Of a stretch of DNA of 64,000 bases, positions 14,950 through 30,026 are shown piece by piece. Numbering within the stretch: the stretch's first letter is position 1; the number at the start of each line of letters is the position of its first letter. Made by a program: the position numbers and the translations under genes. The stretch comes from Alphaproteobacteria bacterium (GTDB taxonomy: Bacteria > Pseudomonadota > Alphaproteobacteria > Rhodobacterales > Rhodobacteraceae), in the NCBI GenBank assembly GCA_030427145.1, contig JAUHWT010000004.1, positions 124,001-188,000 of the forward strand. The letters run 5' to 3'. The notes beneath the pieces are model-generated. The model searched no databases and had not been told where the DNA came from. It saw only the letters and a list, made by a program, of their open reading frames with translations.

Positions 14950-15054
14950 TTGCCGAAAATGGCCGAAATTGGGAGTGGTTTGGGCTGAGTGGGCTGGCTT
15001 GGCGGGTGCGACTGATTAATTGCGATTTCCGCCCTCGCCCCGAGGGCTGCGCCT

Positions 15055-15127
15055 GACCCTGGGGGGTGCGGAGCGCCCTCCCGGAGGGAGGGTCGGGCGC
15101 TGCCCGGCGGTGCCGCCGGGCGGGAGG
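15055..15127 (+). repeat. Dispersed two-hairpin intergenic element, copy R1
   Basis: Stem 1 is AGCGCCC (15072-15078) with GGGCGCT (15095-15101). Stem 2 is GCCCGGCGG (15102-15110) with CCGCCGGGC (15113-15121), followed by GGGAGG. The 5' GACCCTGGGGGG block can alternatively pair with the middle of the element. It closely matches R2 at 15730. Confidence 0.75.
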
Positions 15128-15729
15128 CTTGAGAGGGGAGTGCTGCTGAGCAAGCTTAGTCTCGCGAAAGCGACGAACGCAAAAACCGCCGCCCCTGGGA
15201 CAGCGGTTTGGAGAATGACGAGTGATCCATCGGGACCGCAAACCACCCTTACTCAATCCTGAGTTCGGCTTGGGCCAAGGTCCATCCCGGAGCTTGACCA
15301 GGCTCGAGGCCAGTGCCTCTCACTTCATCACATCTTATGTGCCGGGTCGCCAAACCATTTTGTGTCACGCGGTGGCTTCCAAACGTTTGAGGCCCGGTTA
15401 ACAGCGCGATTTGAAGCTATTTGCACACCCATCGTTTGCCCAATGGGAATCCTTCGATGTTTTCTCAAACTCCTTCTGAAGCACTGAGGCGATAGGCAAA
15501 TATCATCACCCCAGGATCGGAGCAGCCAAAAAAGCTTCCAAGGAAACCTCCTTGTCAGGCGGCCGTCGATGGACCCCAATGAATATATAGCACCGCATTT
15601 TGATGCATCAAGACCCCTATATACAAAATGTGCTACAATTCTACGGTTCAGCCATCTGTCGACGTCCACCGCCGTTCCCGGCACTGCCCGGTCGCGATTG
15701 GGTCCGCCCTTCCTCTGAGGGCAGCGCCT

Positions 15730-15801
15730 GACCCTGGGGGGTGCGGAGCGCCCTCCTGGGGGAGGGTCGGGCGCTGCCCGGCGGTGCCGCCGGGCGGGAG
15801 G
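15730..15801 (+). repeat. Dispersed two-hairpin intergenic element, copy R2
   Basis: Stem 1 is AGCGCCC (15747-15753) with GGGCGCT (15769-15775); stem 2 is GCCCGGCGG (15776-15784) with CCGCCGGGC (15787-15795). Both stems are identical to R1. The GACCCTGGGGGGTGCGGAGC block is also identical, while the loop differs slightly. Confidence 0.75.
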
Positions 15802-15921
15802 GTTGAAAGGGGAGTGCCATGCTCCGGCCATCATCCGGTCAATTATCTGGACCGGGGGCGTTCGGGCATGTAGACTTGGACGCAACGGGGCGTGAATGAT
15901 CCCGGTAACGAGGCCAATGTT

Positions 15922-20755: not shown

Positions 20756-20826
20756 GACCCTGGGGGCGCGAATGCGCCTCCTGGGGGAGGGTTGGCGCAG
20801 CCCGGCGTTGCCGCCGGGCGGGACGG
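20756..20826 (+). repeat. Dispersed two-hairpin intergenic element, copy R3
   Basis: Stem 1 is TGCGCC (20773-20778) with GGCGCA (20794-20799), and stem 2 is GCCCGGCG (20800-20807) with CGCCGGGC (20812-20819). The outer pair of stem 1 is T-A where R1, R2 and R5 have A-T, a compensatory change. The loop CTCCTGGGGGAGGGT is conserved. Confidence 0.72.
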
Positions 20827-20983
20827 TTGAAGCCTCCTGGTCCAATTGAACAGCGGTCCGTGTTAGATTTAGCGGGAACTCTTTACCCTGACCCGAGGCA
20901 CGGCGCGCCATGACCGACTTTGGGAGGGCTTCGTCCCGGGTGTTCAGCGCGGGTCGGTTAAGTTACTGAGGCCATTGAGTTAA

Positions 20984-25660: not shown

Positions 25661-25812
25661 GGCCGTGGTGAAGGAAAGGTTAAAACTAAATTTACTTTCA
25701 GGGGGTCTATTGCCGGATGCTGGACGGAGGACCCGTTCGGACCGTGGAGCCACGCGTTTATGCGGGCTTCGGTGGCTGTAAATGGTTTGCCCGGGAGTGA
25801 CAGGAATTGCAT

Positions 25813-26361
25813 TTGAACTCAGTCAGGCTGTTGGCCGCCGCCGCTTTGGTTCTTCCGGTCTGGACCGCACCCGCCGATGCGCTGACCTGGCATTTGCGGG
25901 AATGGGTGTTTGACGATGGTGGCACGGCCCAGGGGCTGTTCGACTATGATTTCACCTCCCGCCAGTTCAGCAATGTGGACGTGACGACCTTCAGCGACAC
26001 GGGCTCGGTCAACCGGGTTTATTCCGCGATGGCGCCGCGCTCGGGCGCGAGCCTGCTTTACATGATTGAGGAGCCTGCGGCGGATCTGACCGGCACCGGG
26101 ACCATGTGGTCCCAGCTCTGGGGCGTGATGTATGCGGAAGGTACGATCGACGCGGTTGGCGGGCTGAAATACGAGACGACCTGCGGCAATGCGGCCTGTT
26201 CCGCGATTGGTCCGATTGAGCGCACGCTGGTGAGTGGCGTGATTACGACCGACCCGGATTACGGCACGGCCGTGCCGGAGATTGACGCGTCGGCGGGGCT
26301 GGGTGCCCTGGCCGCTTTGGGCGGTATGCTGGCGTTTCTGCGGGGCCGTCGCCGCGTTTGA
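25813..26361 (+). CDS. VPEID-CTERM (PEP-CTERM-like) exported protein 1, TTG start
   Basis: A small exported protein of about 182 residues. After a signal peptide (LLAAAALVLPVWTAPADA), the mature part starts LTWHLREWVFDDGGTAQGLF, a domain seen in many PEP-CTERM-type proteins. The C-terminus is VPEIDASAGLGALAAL, a hydrophobic helix and the basic tail RGRRRV, the sorting-signal architecture processed by exosortase-type enzymes. No ATG fits; TTG at 25813 has AGGA seven bases upstream, with TTG at 25807 as alternative. A second protein with the same tail is at 34827-35465. No exosortase is visible in the window. Confidence 0.78.
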   Translation: MNSVRLLAAAALVLPVWTAPADALTWHLREWVFDDGGTAQGLFDYDFTSRQFSNVDVTTFSDTGSVNRVYSAMAPRSGASLLYMIEEPAADLTGTGTMWSQLWGVMYAEGTIDAVGGLKYETTCGNAACSAIGPIERTLVSGVITTDPDYGTAVPEIDASAGLGALAALGGMLAFLRGRRRV

Positions 26362-26423: not shown

Positions 26424-27128
26424 TCAGACGGCGCGGGTGAGGCCGCCGTCGATGCGCCAGTTCTGGCCGGTGACGTAGCCACCATCGTCAGAGGCGAGCC
26501 AGCCGATCAGCGACGACACCTCCTCTTCCCGCCCGTAGCGGCCCATTGGGATGCGGGCGCGGCGGTCCTCCGTTTCGGGCAGGCTGTCGATAAAGCCGGG
26601 CAGAACATTGTTCATGCGGATGTTTTGCGCGGCGTATTTGTCGGCGTAGAGTTTGGTGAAGCCCGCGAGACCTGCGCGGAAGACGCCCGAGGTCGGGAAA
26701 AGCGGGTCGGGTTCGAAGGCGGCGAAGGTTGAGATGTTGATGATCGCGCCGCCGCCCTGCCCGGCCATAATCGGGGTCACGAGGCGGGTCGGGCGGATGA
26801 CGTTCATCAGGTAGACGTCGAGGCCCGCGTGCCAGTCGTCGTCCGTCATTTCAAGAATGTCGCCCTTGGGGCCGTGACCGGCGGAGTTGACCAGAACGTC
26901 GACGCGGCCCCATCTTTCCATCGCGCCGTCGACGAGGCGGGCGAGATCATCGACCGACTGGTTTGATCCGGTGACGCCGAAGCCGCCGAGGCTTTCGCCG
27001 AGCGCCTCGCCCTTGCCCGAGGAGGACAGGACGCCGACCTTAAAGCCGTCGGCGGCCAGGCGTTTTGCGGCGCCCGCGCCCATGCCGCTGCCGCCTGCGG
27101 TGATCAGGGCTGTTTTTTCTGCTGTCAT
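26424..27128 (-). CDS. SDR-family protein with atypical active site
   Basis: A 234-residue short-chain dehydrogenase/reductase-fold protein. The Rossmann motif TAGGSGMGAGAA, the VLVNSAGHGPKG block (NSAG in place of NNAG) and the C-terminal GYVTGQNWRIDGGLT are normal. The catalytic YxxxK is not: where most SDRs read YSASKAAVITLTK, this one reads SGVFRAGLAGFTK, so tyrosine and lysine appear replaced by Ser/Phe and Arg. It may bind a nucleotide without standard oxidoreductase activity, or use other residues. ATG at 27128 has GGAGACACC upstream. It lies just downstream of the original coxE 3' end (copy A of the direct repeat). Confidence 0.85.
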   Translation of the reverse strand: MTAEKTALITAGGSGMGAGAAKRLAADGFKVGVLSSSGKGEALGESLGGFGVTGSNQSVDDLARLVDGAMERWGRVDVLVNSAGHGPKGDILEMTDDDWHAGLDVYLMNVIRPTRLVTPIMAGQGGGAIINISTFAAFEPDPLFPTSGVFRAGLAGFTKLYADKYAAQNIRMNNVLPGFIDSLPETEDRRARIPMGRYGREEEVSSLIGWLASDDGGYVTGQNWRIDGGLTRAV

Positions 27129-27275
27129 GGTGGTGTCTCCTCACTGGCCGGAATGTGTTTTCGGTCTGTTGTTGAGAAGATAGGGGCCAGGGGAGTGTCG
27201 GGCCAGCCAGATGGGCTGTTGCCTGCGTGTAGATTTTCTATTGCACCCGTGAGGCCGCGATGCCGGATCAGGCGG

Positions 27276-27341
27276 CGGTTGAGGGGGCGTCGAGCATCCG
27301 TTTCAGGCGGTGCCGTTCGACGGCGTTTTCCGGTGCGGTCA
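27276..27341. repeat. 66-base direct repeat, left copy (displaced coxE 3' end)
   Basis: It is identical to 28661-28726 except position 27334 (T versus G at 28719), which is a synonymous change in an alanine codon when read as coxE. Reading on the minus strand gives TAPENAVERHRLKRMLDAPS, then TAA-stop in protein terms, so it is probably the original chromosomal end of coxE. Confidence 0.9.
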
Positions 27342-27390
27342 TCCGTTCAACGAAGAGACATCCGTTTGCCGAAAGTTGTTTGCGAGCTTT

Positions 27391-28491
27391 TCACTGCTCC
27401 GGATCGTTATCTTCCAAATCTTCATCGTCGAATTCTATCTCGTCCTCACTCTGGTCCGCCAATAGACGGATTTGTTCGCGTGTATTGCGAAGCTCGTCAT
27501 GGTTTTTCCGGACGTTTCTGGCATCTTCAATTTCATCCTTCGAAAGCGGCGGGTCATACTCTCCGTCTTCCGGGTCGGGTGGCGGCAAAATGTCGACTTC
27601 ACCACCTTTCTTAGTGAACTTGTTCATTTTTTCGATAGATTTTTTCAGAGCATTTACTTTTTCACCATCGTAGGGTTTAGGAAGAGTTTCTACAGCGGCA
27701 TCAAGTAGTTCTTTTAATCCGTCCTGTTCTAAGTCCTCAATACTCTTCTCAAGACCTTTCATAACACTTTTGTTGAGTTTAACCTTATGCTTAAAATCTT
27801 CTACAGCATTGGCCAATTCGAGAGCGTTGAGACCGATCTTAGTAACGTGGTTGCTGATCAGGAGTAGCAGTGCTGTAGCTGTTGCGGTTGTTCCAAGTAC
27901 GAGGATAACGGACCCTTGATGCGCGCCTAAAACTTTGACTGTTTCGGGTGCCTCATCAACGCAAATTGCTATCCCGCGCATAATGTCAAACCACTCTTGA
28001 GACCATTCCTTAAGTTCCGTGATATCATTGATCGCGGCATTGTCTCGAAAATGAACACGGACAGCGATTTGGTCTATATACGACTCTTCCTCTTCGACAA
28101 ACTTGAGGGACGCGAGACGATCAGCCACCTCCGAAAAGTTATTCTGGAGTTTGCCCAACGCTTGTTGAATTTCAGAAATTTCTTGAGCCGCAGTCGCAGC
28201 ATCAAAACGAGCACTTTTAACTATGCTCTCAATATGTCGAGCACCTTGATTACCGACGAACTGGAGCACATCCTCGCGCTCTAGAACTGATATCTGTTCG
28301 CGCGTCAGAAGGTGCAATGGCATCGCTCGGAGCGATCCAAGCAGAAGTTTCAGATCATCTTTCACTGGCTGTTTTGTCGGCTGTGTAGCGTTTTGGTTCA
28401 GTTTCTTATGCAGTACTCTAAGTTGTCCAACCACAGGCCGCCCGTAAGTATCAAACCAAATGCAAAGATTTATAAGCTCACGTATTTCCAA
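27391..28491 (-). CDS. Unrecognised acidic membrane-associated protein, cargo of the integrated element
   Basis: A 366-residue protein from a TTG start at 28491 with an excellent AGGAGG site 6 bases upstream. I do not recognise a named family. Visible parts are a helical N-terminal half with coiled-coil tendency (about 75-135: EISEIQQALGKLQNNFSEVA), then a compact segment VRVHFRDNAAINDITELKEW and EWFDIMRGIAICVDEAPETV (about 145-185). A GAHQGSVILVLG turn leads into a single hydrophobic helix (about 193-216). The C-terminal half is charged helical and ends in a very acidic tail (SEDEIEFDDEDLEDNDPE). AT-rich codon use differs sharply from its neighbours, indicating recent transfer. A defence or selfish role is conceivable from context only. 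Confidence 0.8.
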   Translation of the reverse strand: MEIRELINLCIWFDTYGRPVVGQLRVLHKKLNQNATQPTKQPVKDDLKLLLGSLRAMPLHLLTREQISVLEREDVLQFVGNQGARHIESIVKSARFDAATAAQEISEIQQALGKLQNNFSEVADRLASLKFVEEEESYIDQIAVRVHFRDNAAINDITELKEWSQEWFDIMRGIAICVDEAPETVKVLGAHQGSVILVLGTTATATALLLLISNHVTKIGLNALELANAVEDFKHKVKLNKSVMKGLEKSIEDLEQDGLKELLDAAVETLPKPYDGEKVNALKKSIEKMNKFTKKGGEVDILPPPDPEDGEYDPPLSKDEIEDARNVRKNHDELRNTREQIRLLADQSEDEIEFDDEDLEDNDPEQ

Positions 28492-28652
28492 ATTATCCTC
28501 CTTTTATCGGCTAAAAAATACTTTGATGCTTGGCACGGTAAGGTAAAATGCCGCGCTCAAATCGTCATTAGATTTTTGTGTCTTTGTTTTACCAGCATAG
28601 TCTAGTCGCTTGCTCTAGGGAACGAAACAGTCCAGCCGCGTTCGCGATGACC

Positions 28653-29915
28653 TTAAGTGCCGGTTGAGGGGGCGTCGAGCATCCGTTTCAGGCGGTGCCG
28701 TTCGACGGCGTTTTCCGGGGCGGTCAGCACATTGGTGAGGTCCGAGAGCGAGGCGAGGCTGTGGCAGGCGCGGAAGCTGTCCACATGGGGCAGCATGGCG
28801 CGGACGCCGCGGGCGCGGGCGGAGAAGCCGTCCCAGCGCAGCAGGGGATTGAGCCAGATGACGCGGCGGGCGGAGAGGTGGAGGCGTTCCATTTCAAGGC
28901 CGAGGCGGTCGGGGTCGTCGCGGTCGAGGCCGTCGGTGATGAGCAGGATCACCGCGCCCTGCCCAAGAACGCGGCGGGACCAGTCGCGGTTGAAGTCATG
29001 CAGGCAGGCGCCGATGCGGGTGCCGCCTTCCCAGTCGCGGGCTTCACGGCCGGCGGCCTCCAGGGCCATGTCCACGTCGCGGCGGCGCAGGTGGCGGGTG
29101 ATGTTGGTGAGCCTGGTGCCGAAGGTGAAGGCGTGAACCTGGGCCCAGCCCGCGCCTTTGGCGTTCGAGACGGCGTGCAGGAAGTGGAGCAGCATGCGCG
29201 AATAGGAGGACATGGAGCCGGAGATGTCGCAAAGCGCCACGAGATTGGGCGGGCGCGTGCGGCGGGCGCGGAAGCGGGGCTGGCGCATTTCGCCGCCCGC
29301 GCGCAGGGTGGCGCGCATGGTGCCCTGCCAGTCGGGGACGTGGCCGCGCGGATCGGGCGCGGTACGGCGGCTGGTCAGGGGTTTGATGGCGAGATCGAGC
29401 CGGGCGATGGCGCGTTTGGCATCCGCGGTTTCCGCCGCCGACATCTGCTCAAAATCCATTTTTTTGAGGGTTTCGTCGGTGGAGGCTGTGAGGCTCGCGT
29501 CGATCTGGATTTCCTCGCCCTCCTCCGCTTTGGGCGGCGGGGGTGGCTCATCGGCGCCGTCGAGCAGGGCTTCCGCCGCCCGGCGGTCGGCGGCCTTGGG
29601 GGCCTCGGGCTCGTGGACGCCGCGCACCATGGGCAGGAGCATGGACATCATGTGCTCAAGGAACTGCGGGTCGCGCCAGTAGAGCTGGAAGATGCGGGAG
29701 AAGACCTCGCGGTGTTCGGGGCGGCTGACGAAGCAGGCCTGGAGGGTGTGGTAGAAATCGGTGCGGTTGGTGAAGCCCGCGGTTTCCACGGCGCGAATGG
29801 CGTCCACCACGCGGCCGGTGCCAACGGGGAGACCTGCGCGGCGCAGGGCGCGGGCGAAATGGGTGATGTTTTGCGCGAGGTGGCCGTTTTCGGGGATGGG
29901 GATGGGGTCAGGCAT
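28653..29915 (-). CDS. coxE: CoxE-like VWA-domain protein
   Basis: A 420-residue VWA protein of the CoxE family. The C-terminal von Willebrand A domain carries the MIDAS motif LCDISGSMSSYSRMLL, then GGTRIGACLHDFNRDW and LLITDGLDRDDPDRLG. The N-terminal half is helical (HFARALRRAGLPVGTGRVVD). With the MoxR ATPase encoded 135 bases upstream on the same strand, it probably forms a chaperone/insertase pair for maturing a molybdenum or copper enzyme. ATG at 29915 is used; a longer ORF has no support and would enter the R5 element. Its final 22 codons are the repeat copy B, so the present C-terminus STGT seems supplied by the inserted element. Confidence 0.9.
   Translation of the reverse strand: MPDPIPIPENGHLAQNITHFARALRRAGLPVGTGRVVDAIRAVETAGFTNRTDFYHTLQACFVSRPEHREVFSRIFQLYWRDPQFLEHMMSMLLPMVRGVHEPEAPKAADRRAAEALLDGADEPPPPPKAEEGEEIQIDASLTASTDETLKKMDFEQMSAAETADAKRAIARLDLAIKPLTSRRTAPDPRGHVPDWQGTMRATLRAGGEMRQPRFRARRTRPPNLVALCDISGSMSSYSRMLLHFLHAVSNAKGAGWAQVHAFTFGTRLTNITRHLRRRDVDMALEAAGREARDWEGGTRIGACLHDFNRDWSRRVLGQGAVILLITDGLDRDDPDRLGLEMERLHLSARRVIWLNPLLRWDGFSARARGVRAMLPHVDSFRACHSLASLSDLTNVLTAPENAVERHRLKRMLDAPSTGT
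28661..28726. repeat. 66-base direct repeat, right copy (present coxE 3' end)
   Basis: This copy encodes the last 22 codons of the coxE-type gene and matches 27276-27341 at 65 of 66 positions. Identity stops abruptly at both ends, marking the presumed exchange boundaries. Confidence 0.9.
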
Positions 29916-29960
29916 TCCGGGAACACCTGATGGTTGTGCTCCTAGACGGAGGGGAGTGCG

Positions 29961-30026
29961 GACCTCGGGGGGCGCGATAGCGCCTCCCATGGGGGAGGTC
30001 GGCGCTGCCCGGTGTGGCCACCGGGC
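29961..30026 (+). repeat. Dispersed two-hairpin intergenic element, copy R5
   Basis: Stem 1 is AGCGCC (29979-29984) with GGCGCT (30001-30006); stem 2 is GCCCGGTG (30007-30014) with CACCGGGC (30019-30026). Stem 2 has T-A where the R1-R3 copies have C-G, another compensatory change. It lies between moxR- and coxE-type genes in the antisense orientation to them. Confidence 0.68.

Follow-up and report, generated by a model that had tools for sequence, protein, structure and literature searches.

Organization of the locus

The window, i.e. the whole stretch of 64,000 nucleotides of alphaproteobacterial DNA analyzed here, carries an intact coxE-like gene (28653..29990, minus strand; 445 aa; VWA_CoxE, Pfam PF05762, E 9e-65) and, downstream of it, a gene for a short-chain dehydrogenase (26424..27128, minus strand), which forms the right flank of the insertion described below. 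A 66-bp stretch close to the 3' end of coxE (28661..28726, minus strand) recurs in detached form at 27276..27341 on the same strand; the copies are identical at 65 of 66 positions, and the sole mismatch (GCC vs GCA) encodes Ala in both. The repeat was recovered with an E value of about 1e-31 when the flanks of the insert were compared by BLAST, and the 66-mer found only these two sites at E <= 0.001 in the genome to which the window belongs (4.54 Mb, 97.7% complete).

An earlier note on this DNA had reported the two copies, their common strand and the synonymous mismatch, all of which were confirmed; its description of the repeat as the last 22 codons of coxE holds for the location near the 3' end but not for the exact end, as the repeat stops two codons before the stop codon. 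Each copy runs into a stop codon of its own, as the note had stated, and both reach it at the same codon position: the coxE-joined copy ends in ...PST-G-T-TAA (stop at 28653-28655) and the detached copy in ...PST-A-A-TGA (stop at 27268-27270). The latter ending resembles the coxE end of one congener (...MLAAA-stop; locus L023). The Ala-Ala-TGA behind the detached copy is presumed to be the native coxE end, and the last two codons and the stop of the present coxE are read as derived from inserted DNA. No similarity was seen outside the 66 bp on either side when flanks of 30, 45 and 60 bp were compared (p = 0.41, 0.94 and 0.86 on the right; 0.16, 0.31 and 0.89 on the left); a foreign coxE end brought in by the element, for which homology past the repeat would have spoken, was rejected. 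The predicted fold of the repeat is weakly better than that of shuffled sequences (z -1.5 and -1.6).

The inserted, foreign DNA between the copies comprises 1,319 bp (27342..28660) with a GC content of about 45%, compared with 66% in the 2 kb on either side. The only open reading frame in it that yielded relatives is the cargo gene (27391..28491, minus strand), and the remaining open reading frames of at least 50 aa lie inside or across this gene in other frames; the AT-rich DNA with a single gene that had been noted earlier is thus borne out. The cargo gene is preceded by a 169-bp leader inside the insert (28492..28660, minus strand) with a strong Shine-Dalgarno sequence, in which no match to a sigma-70-like promoter was obtained. 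No recombinase was found in the insert, by Pfam scan of the cargo protein and by position for the other reading frames, in agreement with the earlier description of a small element that lacks an integrase.

A survey of 621 kb of the same genome, the window included, for repeats of 28 bp or more with 90% identity or more gave five pairs: the one described here, one in the window at 15022 and one each at loci L163, L113 and L117. Two pairs did not fit as similar inserts when inspected by eye: the pair at window position 15022 overlaps a long open reading frame, and the pair at locus L163 lies inside a long, repetitive one. The former is a repeat of about 120 bp (15022-15143 and 15694-15817; 79% GC; copies 90% identical and 672 bp apart), of which a weaker third copy is located at 20779-20841. 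The L113 pair, a 226-bp direct repeat (98% identity, spacing 695 bp) that duplicates a small gene, is located on another contig (G000:C11, L113:13909-14829), in a region that looks like a prophage beside a tRNA-Met gene. Also in the window, a small exported-looking protein (25807-26361), with a C-terminus that we take to be a VPEID-type sorting signal, is encoded beside a DUF1254/DUF1214 protein.

The cargo gene and its family

The cargo gene starts with TTG, preceded by AAAGGAGG, and encodes a 366-aa protein whose family is undescribed. One membrane segment is predicted in it (residues 195-213), and its C-terminus is acidic; a single hydrophobic segment (about residues 195-216) is present in all seven aligned family proteins. 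The dN/dS ratios of two close family pairs (0.09 and 0.06) point to purifying selection, and the cargo gene is therefore probably functional. Searches against Pfam, NCBIfam, PHROGs and PADLOC gave no accepted match and only weak partial ones: with PADLOC, the window protein matched PDC-S32 at E 0.0037 over 45 residues and, of seven family members searched, one matched a SAVED model (E 0.0026), with nothing else at E <= 0.1, so that the family does not fall into a known defence family by this search. An AlphaFold2 model of the cargo protein reached a mean pLDDT of 72 and a pTM of 0.49; of 184 fold matches in the PDB with E <= 10, none had E <= 0.001, and no solved relative was found by sequence. 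In Gemmobacter, an open reading frame that overlaps the end of the cargo relative matches Abi_C (abortive infection). Judged by its genomic context, the cargo probably belongs among accessory membrane proteins with an anti-phage or element-competition function; a role in defence or conflict is plausible. No description of the family or of the locus was found in the literature searched, the family being nameless and hence not searchable by name.

The family is patchily distributed. A profile search found it in five of 394 genomes of the taxonomic family, the own genome included, and a search with the single sequence returned the same five; the own genome was the only positive one among 11 of the genus. 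Among 385 genomes of the class, three were positive including the own, and one of the others is weak (E 9e-4 over 119 positions). A pattern scan of 84,980 species genomes gave six loci, all in genera placed in Rhodobacterales, two of which apparently coincide with contigs of G281 and G062; a single-sequence scan of the same genomes, and likewise of viral contigs, gave no match. Two plasmids encode more distant relatives. The relative in Photobacterium (24% over 82%, E 5e-12) has a type II restriction-modification pair at a distance of about 3 kb; the one in Vibrio is a weak match (16% covered, E 4e-4). The earlier note had named a stable core gene always found at this place as the finding that would speak against an insertion; the counts in the genus and the family are far from that.

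Relatives of the cargo gene at other sites

At four loci (L018 to L021) the cargo relative is a lone insert of lower GC content, with neighbours (some of which were scanned) that comprise gcrA and rimO, soxG, NAD synthase and a MORN-repeat protein, and a YdcZ exporter. The relative between gcrA and rimO (L018, genome G077) contains an internal stop codon and shows no target duplication; in all four other genomes of that genus gcrA and rimO are 72 to 372 bp apart and no insert is present. A dispersed repeat of about 55-70 bp lies at the edge of this insert (L018:8838-8911); G077 and G403 contain dozens of matches to it.

Other relatives were found after polA, beside an HNH gene (G681), and in the company of integrases. 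An uncultured Aliiroseovarius carries one in a 9.2-kb tRNA-Asn element (L029:3473-12725). The tRNA-Asn repeat that bounds this element is exact over 48 bp, and the element encodes an Arm-DNA-bind_3 integrase as well as a DUF3987 protein; it has the appearance of a satellite or integrative element of small size. In Celeribacter (L030), the relative lies by a tRNA-Thr gene, a tyrosine integrase and a serine recombinase. Between L019 and L029, 1,283 bp align at 90% identity, starting 192 bp before the gene and ending just past its stop codon; the 3-kb flanks give no further match. Because only the gene and its 192-bp leader are shared, these two together seem to form the moving unit, and the window is much the same in this respect. 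No direct repeat of more than 16 exact bp was found within 1.2 kb of eight other loci with cargo relatives; long target duplication is therefore no habit of the cargo gene.

The coxE target and candidate integrases

The 66-bp stretch is poorly conserved. In coxE of 44 relatives (40 from among the best-ranked coxE matches in the 394 family genomes, and four congeners) its identity averages 60% and reaches 74% at most, compared with a mean of 75% for the preceding 300 bp. In all 40 of those family genomes (best-ranked coxE matches; up to 12 kb of downstream DNA, under 4 kb in five of them) the best downstream repeat of the coxE 3' end is 20 bp or shorter, and the coxE genes of five congeners, whose CoxE proteins are only 70-75% identical, also lack the repeat. 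Conservation of both repeat copies in most relatives, which the earlier note had named as a contrary result, was hence seen in none of the 40, and coxE as a general attachment site was rejected on the same count. No coxE joined to this dehydrogenase was found among the matches listed for the 394 family genomes (one or two candidates scored in each) or at any of six congener loci.

The own genome contains eight Phage_integrase matches, seven of them over the cut-off, and its integrases are spread over contigs C1, C11, C12, C20, C31 and C32; of six loci scanned for tRNA genes, two have one adjoining the integrase. The 66-mer gave only short matches, of at most 16 bp, at the eight integrase loci, and these integrases were rejected as owners of the coxE site. 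The search that the earlier note had proposed for other elements ending in the 66 bp was thus positive for the two sites of the own genome only: a 25-bp core of the repeat had no exact match in viral contigs, and no matches were found in plasmid, phage or viral DNA. Nor was a Ku gene found in the own genome; end-joining capture via Ku was rejected for this reason, and classical end-joining capture is unlikely.

Origin of the insert

The cargo was most likely acquired by horizontal transfer, as a single gene, in view of the foreign-looking insert, the patchy family, the empty gcrA-rimO sites and the carriage of relatives on integrase elements. The earlier note had proposed a small foreign element integrated by reuse of the coxE 3' end. 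The foreign insertion at this site stands, with the GC shift, the patchy orphan gene, the coxE of relatives without the repeat and the empty sites of the homologous insert; reuse of coxE by a recombinase as attachment site found no support in the poorly conserved target, the lack of repeats above 20 bp behind 40 other coxE genes, the short matches at integrase loci and the lack of a viral match.

The geometry of the repeat fits an integrase site and a long target duplication equally. Given their poor conservation among relatives, the second copy of the 66 bp probably stems from this very lineage, and this favours a long target duplication over a carried integrase site. Our preferred reading, held tentatively, is an insertion with long target duplication, through a process for which the unit need not encode an enzyme. 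A small foreign unit, made up of one gene and about 170 bp of leader, would have entered the coxE 3' end, 66 bp of the target would have been duplicated at insertion, and coxE would have remained whole except for its last two residues; the duplication may have arisen, e.g., through staggered breakage or through repair synthesis capturing the incoming DNA, and not through site-specific recombination. The sharp repeat with no detectable homology beyond it argues for this reading, as do the lack of an integrase in the insert and the lone homologous inserts by gcrA-rimO, soxG and other genes. Furthermore, the 66 bp are far closer to the own coxE (a 98.5% copy) than to any of the 44 relatives, and with such poor conservation a copy of this quality is unlikely to have come in on a donor element from another species. 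Against it, the insert supplies a stop at the exact native codon position, for which the chance in random DNA is about 3 in 64 before selection; selection for an intact coxE makes the coincidence less surprising, and an evolved attachment site would explain it. The relatives that ride on integrase elements (L029, L030) and the missing coxE-dehydrogenase junction in the matches listed and the congener loci also count against it, as do the eight other loci without a long flanking repeat and the failure to find a Ku gene.

A close rival, which we consider quite possible, is that a tyrosine integrase used the coxE 3' end, that the repeats are attL and attR, and that the enzyme either worked in trans or has been deleted, so that the element would now be non-autonomous or a remnant. 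The attachment geometry at a gene 3' end and the stops at the same codon position speak for it, as do the homologous cargo genes in the tRNA-Asn element and beside tRNA-Thr with a tyrosine integrase, and the integrases present in the own genome, some beside tRNA genes; moreover, an attachment site adapted to the species might show 65/66 identity as well, so that conservation alone is not decisive. The insert has no integrase, however, the target is poorly conserved, and the observations on coxE in 40 other genomes, on the own integrase loci and on viral contigs, plasmids and phages weigh against this reading as well. Neither the duplication nor the integrase reading gains support from a further example of the same type, given the eight other loci without a nearby repeat. 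An improbable third reading is a single homologous crossover, in which a small circle or short fragment with the cargo and 66 bp of the own coxE (e.g. from a sister strain) was joined by RecA to an empty coxE. The near-identity to the host's own coxE would agree with this, and the repeat, at 66 bp, is longer than the 30 bp cited in PMC2884548 as the threshold for RecA-dependent recombination in E. coli; however, such a crossover accounts for spread within the species and not for the first joining of the cargo to a coxE end, and no plasmid form was found in the plasmid collection. That the cargo is an ordinary core gene, or the locus an assembly artefact, with a chance or ancient repeat is very improbable: nothing direct speaks for it beyond the reliance on a single assembly, and the rarity of the cargo in genus and family, the coxE of relatives without a comparable repeat and the E value of the repeat contradict it.

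Relation to known systems and significance

Insertion with long target duplication is a known kind of event. It is ascribed for restriction-modification genes to Nobusato 2000, as cited in PMC3874152, PMC3031569 and PMC1643837, and further to Furuta 2010, as cited in PMC3031569; illegitimate recombination is estimated in PMC2884548 to underlie 41 to 56% of the microdiversity in E. coli alignments. In the literature available on integrase-less elements, foreign-DNA insertion and coxE as an integration site, no matching case was found beyond these papers. The locus shares with the restriction-modification cases, as these citing papers present them, a compact gene unit, no linked known mobile element and a cargo that is likely of a conflict type; a long direct duplication of host sequence and a unit without transposase or integrase were both found here. 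The duplications in those cases are on the order of 100 bp, compared with 66 bp here, and the present case differs from them in its cargo, an undescribed membrane protein family, and in its alphaproteobacterial host.

Tyrosine-integrase elements at gene 3' ends (tRNA islands, phage satellites, the tRNA-Asn element at L029) resemble the locus in that a direct repeat rebuilds the gene end and its stop, and the L029 element also in its cargo family. The 1.3-kb insert without an integrase and the protein-coding, poorly conserved target set the locus apart from them, and no reuse of the site was found in relatives (0/40). A DDE transposon was rejected, as there are no inverted repeats at the insert ends. 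Integron gene cassettes are single-gene mobile units moved by an enzyme supplied elsewhere, and the locus would resemble them in both respects; an integron cassette was nevertheless rejected because the repeat is coxE coding sequence and not attC, the core-site motif having been compared by eye.

The entry of single accessory genes into bacterial chromosomes without mobile-element enzymes is largely unexplained, and the locus offers a case that is clean and seemingly recent: its 66-bp duplication is near-perfect, its cargo is other than restriction genes, and relatives occur elsewhere. It is a concrete test ground for two questions, namely whether insertion itself creates the duplication and whether the insert can be precisely lost again. 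More broadly, though this is rather unlikely, the cargo family may consist of selfish or defence modules of one gene each, which move into genomes together with their leader but with no recombinase, in some cases leaving a long target duplication and in others travelling on integrase satellites; if so, mobility with long target duplication would extend from restriction-modification systems to an unrelated protein family.
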